Assembly (NCBI GenBank): GCA_016928495.1
Contig: JAFGKQ010000310.1
Span: 1-5,441, forward strand
From: Candidatus Fermentibacterales bacterium
GTDB taxonomy: Bacteria; Fermentibacterota; Fermentibacteria; Fermentibacterales; JAFGKQ01
DNA: 5,441 bases
Reading direction: 5' to 3'
Translations under genes and position numbers: made by a program
In this document: one piece after another, positions 1 to 5,441 of the stretch
How positions within the stretch are numbered: position 1 is the stretch's first letter
Layout: every line of letters begins with the position of its first letter
Notes under the pieces: generated by a model
Databases searched by the model: none
Told to the model about the DNA's origin: nothing
Seen by the model: the letters and a program-made list of their open reading frames with translations, nothing else

Positions 1-539
1 CCCCTCCGGGCACCCCTCTCGAGATTTCCTACGGCGACTACCCCGTGCCGATCGGGTTGGGCCAGACCGTCTCCCAGCCTTACATAGTGGCCTACATGAT
101 AGACCTGCTGGACCTGCCCGAGGAGAGCCCGGCAAGGGTTCTGGAGGTGGGTACCGGATCGGGCTACGAGACCGCCATCCTGGCCCGAATGGGAGTCCGG
201 GTGGTGAGCGTGGAGATACTCCCGGAGCTCTCCGCGCGAGCCCTTCGAGCCCTGTCCGGACTGGGTCTGGAGGAGCGAGTTGCGCTCATCGCCGCCGATG
301 GGTACAATGGCTGGAGCCCGGCTGCTCCCTACGACGGGATAGTCGTGTCGGCTGCCCCGCCCGGGCTGCCCCCGGAGCTGCCGCGGCAGCTCCGGGACGG
401 ACGCAGGCTCGTGATCCCCGTTGGAAGCTGGCACCAGGAGATACTGGTCGTGACCATGGTCGACGGGGACCACATAGAGGTCAGGAGGGACCTTCCCGTG
501 AGATTCGTTCCCCTCACGAAGTCGCGTGGTGCGCCGTGA
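1..539 (+). CDS. pcm: Protein-L-isoaspartate O-methyltransferase, 3' part (5' end outside window)
   Basis: The enzyme uses S-adenosylmethionine to methylate isoaspartyl residues in aged proteins, starting their repair; it is cytosolic. The reading frame is open to the left edge (first full codon at base 3), giving 178 visible residues. The family is usually about 210, so some 30-40 N-terminal residues are missing. The GTG at 45 is not the start: the residues before it (SYGDYPVPIG) already match the family. Visible motifs, counted from base 3: the substrate-site GQTVSQP with its conserved Ser at about 20-26; SAM-binding motif I VLEVGTGSGYE at 46-56; an acidic post-I strand (VVSVEI); the ADGYNGW...PYDGIVV block; RLVIPVG; and the C-terminal VRFVPL signature. 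The stop overlaps the next gene's GTG by 4 bases. Family assignment is firm; the true start cannot be seen. Confidence 0.95.
   Translation, partial: PPGTPLEISYGDYPVPIGLGQTVSQPYIVAYMIDLLDLPEESPARVLEVGTGSGYETAILARMGVRVVSVEILPELSARALRALSGLGLEERVALIAADGYNGWSPAAPYDGIVVSAAPPGLPPELPRQLRDGRRLVIPVGSWHQEILVVTMVDGDHIEVRRDLPVRFVPLTKSRGAP
371..396. repeat. Perfect 26-bp palindrome inside pcm
   Basis: Bases 371-383 (CCCGGAGCTGCCG) are exactly followed by their reverse complement at 384-396, with no spacer and no mismatch. The centre is a CCGCGG hexamer (381-386). In RNA it could form an 11-bp stem with a 4-base loop. It lies in codons for PPELPRQLR, a loosely conserved stretch between two motifs of the methyltransferase. 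No T-run follows, so it is not a standard intrinsic terminator. Function unknown. Confidence 0.9.
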
Positions 540-1258
540 GCGAGGTGCTTCCTCCCGTCGAGGCGAGGGCTCGGGCCTCACGCTTCTGTCTGCTCTGCAT
601 CGGATCCATGCTTCACGGGGCTCTGCACAACATGGGCAACGCCCTGGTCTCGGCGATGGGCAACTACGACCTGGCCATCTCCTCGCTCACCAGCTCCGAT
701 CTCTCGAACGCTCTGGAGCGATTGAAGGCGCTTGGTGAGGCCGTGGACCGCCTTGGCGAGATACACAACAGGCTCAGCCAGCTCTCGGCTCCATCCGGGG
801 CCTCGCCGCAGTCGATGCCCTGCGAGACCTACCAGGGAGTGCTCAGTGTGGTCAGGGCCTGTTGCGGACGCACGCTGGACCTGATCCTGAGACCCGGATC
901 GGAGGAAGCGCTGGCCGAGGCCCCTTCTCCCGGGCCGTTGAATGGCGCTGTCGCTCTGGGACTCCTCACCTGGGCATTCGAGCAGGTACAGAGGAACGGC
1001 AGCATAACCGTGAGCGTGTCTCAGGGCCGGGAGCCTCCCGGCGTTGCCTTCGAGGTGGAATGGGCCTCCGCCGGGGGCCCGGAGAAGGCCTCCGGAGGGT
1101 CAGGCAGCAGCCTGGCTGCCTACCTGCTGGAAACGGTCTCCGATCTGGCGCGCTCCTCAGGGACCGAGCTCTGCCTGGAAGATGAGCGCGAGGGACCCGT
1201 GAGCCGCGGGCTCGCCCGCGCCATTCTCCCGGACCTGCCTTCCGTGCTCCGGGGATGA
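536..1258 (+). CDS. Histidine kinase-like protein with degenerate ATP-binding domain (possible phosphotransferase or pseudokinase)
   Basis: A 240-residue protein with no signal peptide or convincing membrane segment. Residues about 20-85 resemble a DHp helical hairpin: HNMGNALVSAMGNYDLAI (31-48) lines up with the kinase H-box pattern H-x-x-x-N-x-L, with His31 at the phospho-acceptor place, followed by a second helix ending EIHNRLSQLS. Residues about 98-232 follow the order of a HATPase_c domain: an N-box-like helix LLTWAFEQV leading into GSITVSV, a strand FEVE, a Gly/Ser-rich GSGSSLAA at the G2-box place, and a closing AILPDLP. The key N-box Asn is Trp146 and the G1-box Asp is Trp176, so ATP binding is doubtful. 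There is no sensor or receiver domain. The GTG start at 536 overlaps the pcm stop (GTGA) and has no clear Shine-Dalgarno; GTG 545 or ATG 608 are alternatives. Fold similarity is inferred by eye; the cellular role is unknown. Confidence 0.6.
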   Translation: MSEVLPPVEARARASRFCLLCIGSMLHGALHNMGNALVSAMGNYDLAISSLTSSDLSNALERLKALGEAVDRLGEIHNRLSQLSAPSGASPQSMPCETYQGVLSVVRACCGRTLDLILRPGSEEALAEAPSPGPLNGAVALGLLTWAFEQVQRNGSITVSVSQGREPPGVAFEVEWASAGGPEKASGGSGSSLAAYLLETVSDLARSSGTELCLEDEREGPVSRGLARAILPDLPSVLRG

Positions 1259-3309
1259 GCGGCCCGGGTCCGGACTCCGATCGGTTCGAGGAAGAGGTCG
1301 TCTCGATCCTCGAGAGGCAAGGGGGCGCCGTCCTCTCGATGGACTCCATCCGCAAGTCCCTGGATGACCCGCCCGGCGACTTCTCGGACAGGCTCGAGCA
1401 GCTTGTCTCCAGGGGCGTCATCTGGCCGGTCGGGCGCCGCAGCTACGCGCTGCCCTCCACGGTCAATCTGGTAAGGGGCCGGATAAGGCTCAGGCGCAGC
1501 GGCTCGGCCGTTCTGCCTCCAGCCGGGGAGGGGCAGGGACCGGTCGAGATCGACCGCAGGAGAGTGGGGGACGCCCTCGACGGAGATCTGGTCATGGTCC
1601 GTCTCATGCCCACGCCGGTGAGCGGCAGGGGACGGAGTCGAGCCGCAAGACAGGGGCGCGTGTTAGCGGTCCTGGAGAGGAAGCGCACGCGCCTGAGCGG
1701 GGTGCTGCTGAGGGAGGCCTCTCGACGGTGGTTCGTGAGGCCGCTGGACCCCGCTCTGCCGGAGTCCCTTCCGGTCAGGGGCAAGCCCCCTTCCGGGACC
1801 CGCTCGGGCTGCGTCGTGCTGTGCGATCTGGATTTCGACGGCGGAGCCGGAGTCATCGTGAGGAAGGCCCTCGGTGACTCCGGCTCGCCTCACGCGCTGA
1901 TAGACGGGCTCGTGGCGGGTGCTCTGGGTCCCGAGACCGATTTCCCCGACCGCCTCGTGTCGGCGGCAGAGGAGTCGGCATCCCGATTCCCCGACGGCTC
2001 GCCCAGGAAGGACCTCAGGGACTGGCTGACCCTGACCATAGACCCGGCTGACGCCAGGGACTTCGACGACGCCGTTTCCGTCAGGAAGGCCGACGGGGAG
2101 ATCCTGCTGGGGGTCCATATCGCCGACGTGGCTCTCTTCGTGACACCCGGAAGCGACCTGGACGAGGAGGCCTATCGCCGCGCCACCAGCACCTACCTTC
2201 CCGACAGGGTCATACCGATGCTGCCGGAGGCGCTCTCGGCCGGCGCCTGCAGTCTCCGCCCCGGAGAGGACAGGCCTGCCAGGTCGGTGCTCCTGCGGTT
2301 CAGGGAGGATGGAGAGCTGATCGGGTCGAGCATCGAGAGGTCGGTGATAAGGTCTTCCGCGCGCCTCACCTATGAGGAGGTGCAGGCCTATCTGACGGGA
2401 CAGGACGAGCCCGGGCTGCCGGGCCTCTCCGGTTCGCTCGGCGTCATGAAGGGTCTCGCGACAGCCCTCGCTTCGAGGAGGAGGGAACGCGGCGGCATAG
2501 ACCTGGGCAGCGACGAGTACGGCGTGGTCTTCGACGAGGAGGGATGGCCGTCCATCGTGGAGCAGACCGCTGATGACGACTCGCACAGGCTCGTGGAGAT
2601 GTTCATGGTGCAGGCCAACAGCGCCGTCGCCGAGTACTGCAGATGGTCGGGGCTGCCGGTTCTCTACCGGGTCCACCCCCCGCCGGGCAGGTTCTCCGGC
2701 GAGAGGCTGAAACAGGAGCTGTCGGGCCTCGGGATCAGGCTGCCCGGGAGCCGCGAGATCGGTCCCTCCTTCCTTCAGCGCGTGCTGGACGAGCATGGAG
2801 GGGGCGCGAGAGGCAGCATGGTTCGCGAGATGGTCCTGCGCTCCCTCAGCAGGGCTGTCTACTCGCCCCGGAGCGACGGGCACTTCGGCCTGGCCCTCAG
2901 GGACTACATGCACTTCACCAGCCCGATAAGGCGCTACCCGGACCTGCTCGTGCATCAGGTGCTGGCCGTCCTCGACGAGGGCTCGTTTCCGTCTGCCCTC
3001 CGGCCCCTGACGGCGGCAGCATCGCACACGAGCGAGGCAGAGAGGGATGCGGAGGCGCTGGAGAGGAGCTCCATCGAGCTCATGGCCCTTCTCGACCTCT
3101 CCAGGAGGACCGGAGAGGTGTTCGGCGGAGTGGTCACCGGATCCACTGATTTCGGGGCATTCATCAGGCTGGAGGGCCTTCCGGTGGAGGGCCTGCTCCA
3201 CGTGTCCAGGGCGAGAGCGGTCAGGCAGCTCCAGCCAGGCAGCGAGATCAGGGTAGAGGTTACGTCCGTAGATGTGCTGGGCGGGAGAGTCTCACTGGCA
3301 CCCGCCTGA
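1255..3309 (+). CDS. rnr: RNase R/RNase II-family 3'-5' exoribonuclease
   Basis: A processive 3'-5' hydrolytic exoribonuclease of 684 residues that degrades mRNA and structured RNA in the cytosol. Domains in order: winged-helix N-terminus (about 10-66), two cold-shock/OB domains (about 72-140 and 146-235), RNB catalytic domain (about 256-570) and a C-terminal S1 domain (about 620-682). The catalytic motif TIDPADARDFDDAV carries the four metal-binding Asp (263, 269, 271, 272), matching E. coli RNase R Asp272/278/280/281. Tyr314 in TYLP matches RNase II Tyr253, and the FTSPIRRYPDLLVHQ block with the conserved Arg559 is intact. The winged helix and TIDP-x-x-ARDFDD form favour RNase R over RNase II. 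It is shorter than the 813-residue E. coli enzyme: no basic tail follows S1, and S1 itself is compact. The ATG overlaps the previous stop (ATGA) with only a GGGG ahead of it, suggesting re-initiation by coupled ribosomes. Confidence 0.95.
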   Translation: MSGPGPDSDRFEEEVVSILERQGGAVLSMDSIRKSLDDPPGDFSDRLEQLVSRGVIWPVGRRSYALPSTVNLVRGRIRLRRSGSAVLPPAGEGQGPVEIDRRRVGDALDGDLVMVRLMPTPVSGRGRSRAARQGRVLAVLERKRTRLSGVLLREASRRWFVRPLDPALPESLPVRGKPPSGTRSGCVVLCDLDFDGGAGVIVRKALGDSGSPHALIDGLVAGALGPETDFPDRLVSAAEESASRFPDGSPRKDLRDWLTLTIDPADARDFDDAVSVRKADGEILLGVHIADVALFVTPGSDLDEEAYRRATSTYLPDRVIPMLPEALSAGACSLRPGEDRPARSVLLRFREDGELIGSSIERSVIRSSARLTYEEVQAYLTGQDEPGLPGLSGSLGVMKGLATALASRRRERGGIDLGSDEYGVVFDEEGWPSIVEQTADDDSHRLVEMFMVQANSAVAEYCRWSGLPVLYRVHPPPGRFSGERLKQELSGLGIRLPGSREIGPSFLQRVLDEHGGGARGSMVREMVLRSLSRAVYSPRSDGHFGLALRDYMHFTSPIRRYPDLLVHQVLAVLDEGSFPSALRPLTAAASHTSEAERDAEALERSSIELMALLDLSRRTGEVFGGVVTGSTDFGAFIRLEGLPVEGLLHVSRARAVRQLQPGSEIRVEVTSVDVLGGRVSLAPA

Positions 3310-3334: not shown

Positions 3335-4099
3335 ATGGACTCGAGCGGGTCTTCGGACCCCGGTGTCTTCCCGGGGCTGGCGCAAGCCATCTCCGGCTGG
3401 GTTGGCGAGCAGCTCATCCAGGCTGGAGCCGGAGGTGTCGTGCTCGGCCTTAGCGGCGGCATCGATTCGGCAGTCTGTGCCGCGCTCTGCTGCAGAGCAG
3501 TCGGCCCCTCCGCGGTCCTGGCGCTGGCGCTGCCGTGCGACAGCGAGCCCTCCGATCTGCGGGATGCCGCAAGGGTCGCCTCCGATCTTGGCCTCGATCT
3601 TCGCACGATCGTCCTCGATCGAGCCCTGGAGAGTCTCCTGACCTGCTGCGGACTGGATCGCGGGGACAGGTTGACCGTTGCCAACATCAAGGCCAGGCTA
3701 CGGATGACCGTGATCTACGCACACTCCCGCGGCCGTCTGGTAGTGGGCACCGGCAACTACGCCGAGTACCTGATGGGCTACTTCACCAAGTGGGGAGACG
3801 GCGCCTGCGACATCATGCCGCTGGGCAGGCTCTTCAAGGACGAGGTGAGGCGTTTGGCCGAGGTCCTCGGGTTGCCGGGTTTTCTGCTGGGCAAGGAGCC
3901 ATCTGCCGGGCTCTGGCCCGGCCAGACCGACGAGGGGGACATGGGCGTCACCTACGATCAGATACGCAGGTGGGCCGAGGGTGGCGATCCCGGTCCGGAA
4001 GCAGCGAGGATCATGTCGAGCCTGAGCTCGGCAGCCGGGCACAAGCGTGGGCCGGTCCCGGTCTTCGAAGCCCGTGAATGGATGGTGGAGAATGCCTGA
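3335..4099 (+). CDS. nadE: NH3-dependent NAD+ synthetase
   Basis: It catalyses the last step of NAD synthesis: ATP-driven adenylation of nicotinate adenine dinucleotide, then amidation with ammonia. The 254-residue length fits the ammonia-using bacterial form; there is no N-terminal nitrilase (glutaminase) domain, so ammonia must be free or supplied by a partner. Motifs: PP-loop ATP-binding GLSGGIDSAV (38-47); NIKARLRMTVIY (117-128); GTGNYAEYLMGYFTKWGDG (138-156), followed by D159 and PLGRLFKDEVRRLA; the signature KEPSAGLWPGQTDE (187-200); and the C-terminal HKR (236-238) ahead of PVPVF. The start at 3335 follows a good GGAGG, 25 bases after rnr ends. The last 8 bases overlap purH. Both nadE and purH feed nucleotide cofactor supply. 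All family hallmarks are present. Confidence 0.96.
   Translation: MDSSGSSDPGVFPGLAQAISGWVGEQLIQAGAGGVVLGLSGGIDSAVCAALCCRAVGPSAVLALALPCDSEPSDLRDAARVASDLGLDLRTIVLDRALESLLTCCGLDRGDRLTVANIKARLRMTVIYAHSRGRLVVGTGNYAEYLMGYFTKWGDGACDIMPLGRLFKDEVRRLAEVLGLPGFLLGKEPSAGLWPGQTDEGDMGVTYDQIRRWAEGGDPGPEAARIMSSLSSAAGHKRGPVPVFEAREWMVENA
4080..4090 (+). promoter_or_regulatory. Weak ribosome binding region of purH inside nadE
   Basis: GGATGGTGGAG lies just before the purH ATG at 4092. GGATGG gives a 6-base spacing, while the better-matching GGTGGAG is almost touching the start codon. Neither is ideal, so purH probably depends in part on ribosomes arriving from nadE, whose stop lies 8 bases into purH. Confidence 0.4.
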
Positions 4100-5441
4100 C
4101 GCCCTCATCAGCGTTTACGACAAGAGCGGGCTCGATGATCTCGCCTCGGGTCTCGTGGAGCTCGGCTGGAGGCTCTTCGCCTCCGCCGGCACGTGCAGGT
4201 TCCTCTCGGAGAGGGGAATCGAGTCTGCGAGCACTGACGGGCTGACCGGGTTCGAGTCTCTGCTCGAGGGAAGGGTCAAGACGCTCCACCCGGTCCTGCA
4301 CGCGGGCATCCTGGCCAGAGGCGATGAGAGAGAGCGAATGAAGCGCGAGGGCCAGCCGGTTTTCGACATGGTCGTGGTGGATTTCTACCCGTTTACCTAC
4401 GCTCGCGAGCGGTTCGAGGCAACCGACAGGGAGCTCGTGGAGCTGATAGACATCGGAGGCCCGGCCATGGGCCGGGCCGCAGCGAAGAACTGGGAGCATG
4501 TCCTGGTGGTCCCCGGCCCGTCCTGCTACGGCGATGTCCTCCGAGCGGCGCGAGACGGCGCTCTGGATGCAGATCTCAGGCGCAGGATGGCATCCAGGCT
4601 CTACGGCATCACCGCTCTGTACGACCTGGAGGTCTCCGTCAAGCTGGAGGAGGGGCTCGAAGAGGGCCTGCGGTACGGTGAGAACCCGCACCAGAAGGCC
4701 TGGCTCCACAGGACATGGCCGCCACTGGGGATCGGACTGGCCGAGCTGGTCCACGGTTCCTCCATGAGCTACAACAACTACCTCGATGCCGACGCCGCCA
4801 TGTCCCTGGCAGCGGACATGCCGGCGGGAAGCTGCGCCGCCGTGATCATCAAGCACGGGAACCCGTGCGGAGCGGCCCTGGGCGACAGCCCCCTGGATGC
4901 CTTCGAGAAGGCCTTCGCCGCGGACACCGTGTCCCCCTACGGGGGGATCCTGGCCCTCAACGCCGAGGTGGACCTCGGGCTGGTCGAGAGGCTCAAGGGG
5001 CTCTTCCTCGAGCTTCTCATCGCTCCGGGATTCGAGGAGGAGGCGTTGCAGAGGCTGCGCAAGAGGAAGAAACTCAGAGTGCTCAGGTCCGATCTCCGGC
5101 CGAAGGCACAGCTCGAGCTGAGGTCGGTGGAGGGAGGCATCCTGCTTCAGACGCCTGACGCCACCGCACCGGAGGTGTCATCGGCCGACGCGGTCACGTC
5201 CAGGAAGCCGTCCGGAGCGGAGATGGCCGCTCTGGATCTCGCCTGGAGGGTGTGCAGGGGAGTCAGGAGCAACGCCATAGTCGTTGCTGCCCCCGACAGG
5301 ATCCTCGGAATCGGCGCCGGTCAGATGAGCCGCATCGAGAGCCTCGGGCTGGCCTGCGCCAGGGCCGAGGCCGCCGGTCTCTCGGTGGCCGGTGGCGTCC
5401 TCGCCAGCGATGGGTTCTTCCCGTTCCGGGACGGGGTGGAC
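4092..5441 (+). CDS. purH: Bifunctional AICAR formyltransferase/IMP cyclohydrolase, 5' part (3' end outside window)
   Basis: It performs the last two steps of de novo IMP synthesis: formylation of AICAR with 10-formyl-tetrahydrofolate, then ring closure. The frame runs without a stop for 450 codons to the window edge; the family is about 510-530 long, so roughly 60-80 residues are missing. The N-terminal MGS-like cyclohydrolase domain (1 to about 140) has SVYDKSGL, RVKTLHP with Lys63, DFYPF with Tyr99, IDIGGPAM with Asp120 and AAAKN with Lys132, matching the known catalytic Lys/Tyr/Asp/Lys set. The formyltransferase part has RYGENPHQ (194-201), SYNNYLDADAA, IKHGNPCGAA with Lys254-His255, SPYGGILALN, SNAIVVA, GIGAGQMSRIES and ASDGFFPFRD. 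Oddities: the usual STGGT is ASAGT (30-34), and the residue after GGPAM is Gly127 instead of Ile/Leu/Val. Catalytic residues are intact, so it is probably active. Confidence 0.96.
   Translation, partial: MPDALISVYDKSGLDDLASGLVELGWRLFASAGTCRFLSERGIESASTDGLTGFESLLEGRVKTLHPVLHAGILARGDERERMKREGQPVFDMVVVDFYPFTYARERFEATDRELVELIDIGGPAMGRAAAKNWEHVLVVPGPSCYGDVLRAARDGALDADLRRRMASRLYGITALYDLEVSVKLEEGLEEGLRYGENPHQKAWLHRTWPPLGIGLAELVHGSSMSYNNYLDADAAMSLAADMPAGSCAAVIIKHGNPCGAALGDSPLDAFEKAFAADTVSPYGGILALNAEVDLGLVERLKGLFLELLIAPGFEEEALQRLRKRKKLRVLRSDLRPKAQLELRSVEGGILLQTPDATAPEVSSADAVTSRKPSGAEMAALDLAWRVCRGVRSNAIVVAAPDRILGIGAGQMSRIESLGLACARAEAAGLSVAGGVLASDGFFPFRDGVD
4458..4478. repeat. Perfect 9-bp inverted repeat in purH
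   Basis: GGCCCGGCC (4458-4466) and its exact reverse complement GGCCGGGCC (4470-4478) flank an ATG triplet. The stem is entirely G:C and would be very stable in RNA. It encodes the GGPAMGRA part of a conserved cyclohydrolase motif, so much of its sequence is fixed by the protein. Confidence 0.8.

Follow-up and report, generated by a model that had tools for sequence, protein, structure and literature searches.

What might be the function of a short protein that resembles the core of a histidine kinase but carries tryptophans at two key positions of the ATP site? This question is raised by a gene, here termed X, in a 5,441-nucleotide stretch of DNA (the window) from a Candidatus Fermentibacterales bacterium, which is the complete contig C84 of an assembly (G000) of 2.3 Mb and 81% completeness. 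The initial annotation, made from the window alone, had described X as a sensor-free kinase core with an intact H-box, possibly a phosphotransferase or an adaptor/pseudokinase connected to the RNA-decay, NAD and purine genes around it.

Locus and distribution of the X family

X overlaps the upstream pcm gene by a GTGA (536–539) and the downstream rnr gene by an ATGA (1255–1258; Table 1). The order pcm–X–rnr–nadE–purH was seen again in many genomes of the phylum and in Sabulitectum rarA lies immediately 5′ of X, giving an overall conserved order of rarA–(pcm)–X–rnr–nadE–purH. Among 36 other loci, rnr directly follows X in 34 and the contig ends in the other two, and X overlaps or abuts rnr also where the cluster lacks pcm. 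Nothing beyond this conserved housekeeping gene order spoke for the suggested link of X to RNA decay, NAD or purine synthesis; judged from sequence, the neighbourhood is conserved and an RNA-decay role for X appears unsupported beyond gene order.

Table 1 Coordinates of X, its predicted domains and key residues, its neighbours and related features in other loci.
Feature	Location	Strand	Basis or remark
pcm, protein-L-isoaspartate O-methyltransferase	1..539	+	PF01135 E 3.2e-46; 5′ end lost at contig end
X, 240-aa DHp + degenerate CA protein	536..1258	+	GTG start
DHp-like hairpin, residues 7–84 (helices 7–52, 56–84)	554..787	+	pLDDT mostly 90–98 to residue 80; kinase DHp alignment
His31, predicted phospho-accepting	626..628	+	conserved 37/37
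Asn32 at H+1, where kinases have Asp/Glu	629..631	+	N 32, G 2, V 2, S 1 (n=37)
Asn35 at H+4, HisKA phosphatase residue	638..640	+	conserved 37/37; role from PMC3510030
Degenerate Bergerat CA-like domain, residues 97–236	824..1243	+	AlphaFold2 model; VIA CA-domain matches
Trp146 at N-box Asn position	971..973	+	hhalign; Asn in 0/36
Trp176 at G1 Asp position	1061..1063	+	motif and strand order; W in 36/36
rnr, RNase R-type exoribonuclease, directly 3′ of X	1255..3309	+	PF00773 E 5.2e-98
nadE-like NAD synthase	3335..4099	+	PF02540 E 1.8e-59; synteny
purH	4092..5441	+	PF01808 E 8.8e-87; synteny; 3′ end lost at contig end
Insertion element inside X	L171 (G028:C53:12000-18202), 3212-5599	minus	796-aa protein
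N-terminal extension, ~115 residues	L030:1999-2343	minus	receiver-like strand/helix order
PAS-rich hybrid kinase	L041:701-4030		
PAS-rich hybrid kinase	L044:2956-6285		
PAS-rich hybrid kinase	L089:6429-9641	minus	
Lipoprotein-like gene	L042:10642-11763	minus	
Lipoprotein-like gene	L056:10686-11765	minus	
Lipoprotein-like gene	L050:3446-4537		

A search with X in 60 relatives yielded matches in 32 genomes, mostly at 22–33% identity and some of them large kinases; scanning the genome contigs with the window protein alone as query gave no match. With a family profile (A1) built from 23 X orthologues, full-length or near-full-length X was detected in 37 of 42 genomes of the phylum, that of the window counted. 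The 248 genomes outside the phylum contained no X, only partial profile matches, mainly over the stretch from H-box to N-box and all within large open frames. The named loci belong to Sabulitectum, Aegiribacteria and Fermentibacteraceae, pointing to Candidatus Fermentibacterota, and X is an unnamed family restricted to this phylum among the genomes searched. The median pairwise identity of the 37 sequences is 23% with a minimum of 15%, and the window protein shares 18–26% with the other members. Close orthologues show, as judged from their substitutions, purifying selection on X (dN/dS 0.13–0.29).

Of the five genomes lacking X, three have no rnr in the assembly; in a fourth, rnr is truncated by the start of its contig. 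The fifth, G028, carries an X disrupted by an insertion element, which implies that X is not strictly essential everywhere. In this natural knock-out only the last 18–44 residues of X are left before rnr; the element encodes a 796-residue protein in which a DruA (PF14236) region is fused with a Tn5-type transposase. We also considered whether homologues devoid of the histidine could have been missed, and inspection of the five X-less genomes revealed no intact X locus without it. As the absences trace to missing assembly or to the G028 insertion, the invariance of His31 is not a search artefact.

Kinase ancestry and conserved residues

The window protein alone gave nothing above the cut-offs against Pfam and PDB and only sub-cut-off kinase matches against NCBIfam, so that the family profile was needed to reveal the link to kinases. 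Six of the 23 members weakly matched HisKA in Pfam (best E 0.001). The X profile aligned to histidine kinases of the same phylum from the DHp to the N-box, with E-values down to 5e-14, and the profile–profile comparison of the X family with nine of these kinases by hhalign resulted in a probability of 98% and, across 138 columns, an E-value of 2.8e-13; in this alignment His31 falls on the kinase histidine and Trp146 on the N-box asparagine. The gapless H-box and N-box alignments noted initially are thus well beyond chance, and the kinase ancestry of X is shown at the level of sequence comparison. Pfam matches to TPR_7, DUF6278 and Ubiq_cyt_C_chap (E 0.03–0.3), each in one member only, and the PDB profile match 3if4 (E 0.29) were set aside as chance.

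Across the family, His31 is present in 37/37 sequences and the ATP-site Asn and Asp are missing from 36/36 scorable ones. The H-box is nevertheless not intact as initially described: its histidine is kept, but the acidic H+1 residue, Asp in all nine aligned phylum kinases and acidic in none of the 37 X sequences, is replaced by Asn32. The assignment of Trp146 to the N-box position agrees with the hhalign pairing; with W in 14, A in 13, S in 8 and C in 1 of 36 scorable sequences at this position, this tryptophan is lineage-specific within the family. Trp176 was placed at the G1 position by strand order and an ungapped match of V-E-W-A-S-A-G to V-x-D-x-G-x-G, the profile alignment ending earlier. 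Trp176 is invariant at the former Asp position, and the sequences suggest that it may itself serve in binding or packing. Measured against an active HisKA kinase, X contains the histidine in the DHp hairpin and lacks the H+1 acid, the N-box Asn, the G1 DxGxG motif (a position set by motif and strand order), the F-box and the G2 box with ATP lid. The window protein carries a G2-box-like GSGSSLAA stretch.

Only 13 of 214 alignment columns are at least 95% conserved. The best-conserved stretch, residues 31–47 from the H-box to the LA (mean 0.72 versus 0.36–0.57 elsewhere), corresponds to the region that includes the response-regulator docking face on kinases.

Predicted fold of X and of its Aegiribacteria orthologues

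The AlphaFold2 model, calculated from 23 sequences as a single chain, displayed a helical hairpin followed by an alpha/beta domain (pLDDT 86.3, pTM 0.82), in line with the proposed DHp plus degenerate Bergerat-like architecture. The ATP lid is nearly gone, with some 13 residues joining strand to helix in place of lid and F-box. Foldseek ranked the phosphotransferase ChpT first (4fpp, E 2.9e-7), in support of the initial comparison with this protein, closely followed by active kinases (E 4.7e-7), with modest TM values of 0.43–0.48 for the top matches; three further ChpT/phosphotransferase entries also matched. In VIA-align, CA domains reached Z scores of about 11–12 over residues 96–236, where the CA domain of RetS was the top match to both X models with ties within 1 Z, and ChpT 4fmt (Z 11.2, rmsd 4.9, 172 residues) was tied with active kinases. 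These tied scores indicate that the shared fold is DHp plus Bergerat; ChpT is chosen over the kinases as the closer counterpart because of the lost residues and the short lid, not because of the structure score. The predicted hairpin and Bergerat-like fold of the single chain, the invariant His31 and the absent Asn and Asp all agree with the initial reading of X as a degenerate kinase core.

The description as sensor-free holds for the window protein, but not for the Aegiribacteria orthologues, which have a receiver-like amino-terminal domain. These orthologues possess about 110 additional amino-terminal residues with predicted strands alternating with helices and, as in L030, no evident phospho-Asp site. 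The top Foldseek match of the whole Aegiribacteria model was LvrB, a REC-DHp-CA protein; the VIA rows cover residues 121–334 only. These features suggest that the extension may be a degenerate receiver preceding the DHp.

Functional readings and comparison with known phosphotransferases

X is most likely a kinase-derived phosphotransferase or regulator phosphatase acting like ChpT, Spo0B or PhyT. The more specific reading that it is a former HisKA kinase turned dimeric histidine phosphotransferase is held with moderate confidence. Such a protein would neither bind ATP nor phosphorylate itself; His31 would accept a phosphoryl group from a receiver, the probable donor being a hybrid kinase or single-domain regulator, and would then pass it to a response regulator, while Asn35 may also allow X to drain phosphate from the regulator. 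Dimerisation, which in phosphotransferases such as ChpT, Spo0B and PhyT runs through a four-helix bundle, phosphotransfer, the partners and the loss of ATP binding in solution are what we infer for X. In part the initial interpretation is supported, by the fold, the ChpT match, the retained His31 and the lost ATP residues; a phosphatase has to be added to its two options, phosphotransferase and adaptor/pseudokinase.

In HisKA proteins, the acidic H+1 residue is required only for kinase activity and the Thr/Asn at H+4 only for phosphatase activity (PMC3510030). With the former lost and the latter kept in 37/37 sequences each, X could also be a dedicated response-regulator phosphatase, which would dock on a receiver as a kinase does in its phosphatase mode and position a water molecule by Asn35 without carrying phosphate itself. 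This residue pattern would suit a phosphatase equally well and makes it a serious option beside the phosphotransferase, even if we consider it the less likely of the two: a pure phosphatase has no clear need for an invariant histidine, and PhyT, which has the same pattern, transferred phosphate and, in vitro, showed no activity as a phosphatase of PhyR (PMC5898713). Less probable still is that X acts as a pseudokinase adaptor, which like RetS or DivL would associate with a kinase or regulator and exert its effect through the complex formed, with no chemistry taking place at His31. The leading VIA match to the RetS CA domain, the retention of a CA domain despite the loss of the ATP residues and the invariance of Trp176, as if for binding, fit such an adaptor, although an adaptor so diverged would have no need to keep both His31 and Asn35 unchanged. 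Because His31 is invariant, phosphotransfer is preferred to both phosphatase and adaptor.

The near-constant position of X ahead of rnr, also in clusters without pcm, could alternatively reflect a protein outside two-component signalling that regulates adjacent genes, for instance by binding RNase R or RNA. We regard this as very unlikely, as the conserved residues of X are those of receiver chemistry, and adjacency to rnr is not specific since the entire rarA-to-purH order is conserved. Least credible is a still-active kinase with an unusual ATP site: the Bergerat-like fold is retained and the GSGSSLAA stretch of the window protein resembles a G2 box, but neither the N-box Asn nor the G1 Asp occurs in any of 36 sequences, no H+1 acid occurs in 37 and only about 13 residues occupy the place of lid and F-box. 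This reading was rejected on account of the lost ATP-site and H+1 residues.

The phosphotransferase reading has its closest counterpart in ChpT of Caulobacter and Brucella (PF10090; 4fpp, 4fmt, 4qpj), which like X combines a DHp hairpin with a lid-less Bergerat-like domain, has no sensor and is of similar size; its histidine is phosphorylated and its Bergerat-like domain does not bind ATP, as predicted for X. In the ChpT structure an extended helix takes the place of the missing ATP lid (PMC3433190). X differs in lying beside rnr rather than belonging to the CtrA pathway, in the HN pair at H/H+1 and in its confinement to Fermentibacterota. Neither the matches at X loci nor the Pfam scan of 23 members included PF10090. 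Spo0B of Bacillus sporulation, a dimeric phosphotransferase that passes phosphate from one receiver to another, shares the build of DHp and degenerate CA domain. No member of the same 23 matched the Spo0B-type Pfam models (SPOB_a) at E 1, Spo0B structures gave no sequence match, and Spo0B is missing from the listed Foldseek matches, which is no argument against a shared fold.

PhyT and PhyP of the Sphingomonas general stress response resemble X in the non-acidic H+1 and the Asn at H+4 (HRxxN versus HNxxN in X), in a degenerate ATPase domain and in a suspected kinase origin; PhyT itself, with its HRxxN motif and degenerate ATPase domain, transferred phosphate (PMC5898713). PhyT, however, belongs to the HWE/HisKA_2 type, is anchored in the membrane and has a putative periplasmic sensor; X lacks a sensor of this kind and is nearest to HisKA kinases. 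Within the phylum, HDxNN-type HisKA hybrid kinases (for example L095, L098 and L101) are homologous to X from DHp to N-box and share the motif HxxNN...GNxxLA, but they keep the H+1 Asp, the N-box Asn, DxGxG, the F-box and the G2 box, all of which X lacks. As X does not match the sequence models of ChpT and Spo0B and is closest to HisKA kinases, its origin is probably separate from theirs and from that of PhyT. A search of open-licence literature found no paper on Fermentibacteria histidine kinases, nor any on "ChpT-like" proteins. The precedents ChpT, Spo0B and PhyT are known; the unnamed phylum-restricted family with its conserved neighbourhood is new.

No X locus matched the classical Hpt domain (PF01627). 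Eight genomes of 90–98% completeness contain X, no classical Hpt and 2–16 hybrid kinases with a carboxy-terminal receiver, consistent with a relay role for X; the window genome, 81% complete and with hybrid kinases on contigs C135, C272 and C73, likewise gave no Hpt match. This absence is no proof, since hybrid kinases can function without Hpt and 28 of the 42 phylum genomes hold Hpt domains besides X. As a bolder and rather doubtful extension, X might be a single, near-universal phosphotransferase hub of Fermentibacterota, derived from a HisKA kinase within the phylum independently of ChpT, Spo0B and PhyT, that replaces classical Hpt domains for several hybrid kinases and in Aegiribacteria acquired a degenerate receiver by which it is gated. 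The kinase-derived phosphotransferases described so far are, to our knowledge, few in number and come mainly from Firmicutes and Alphaproteobacteria. If true, a separately arisen phylum-wide family would mean that kinases have repeatedly decayed into phosphotransferases by a similar route, losing the ATP site and keeping the histidine and the H+4 Asn. X would then be a concrete candidate for a signalling hub in a phylum known here from metagenome-assembled genomes alone, and its family would offer a clean test of the idea that the H+4 Asn confers phosphatase activity on such proteins.

In three genomes of the Sabulitectum clade, a PAS-rich hybrid kinase, of 1110 aa in Sabulitectum, with a HATPase and a carboxy-terminal receiver is encoded just 5′ of rarA–X and is a candidate phosphate donor. 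A conserved lipoprotein-like gene, whose L042 copy had no Pfam match, was also observed 5′ of rarA, beside an adenine phosphoribosyltransferase-like gene.
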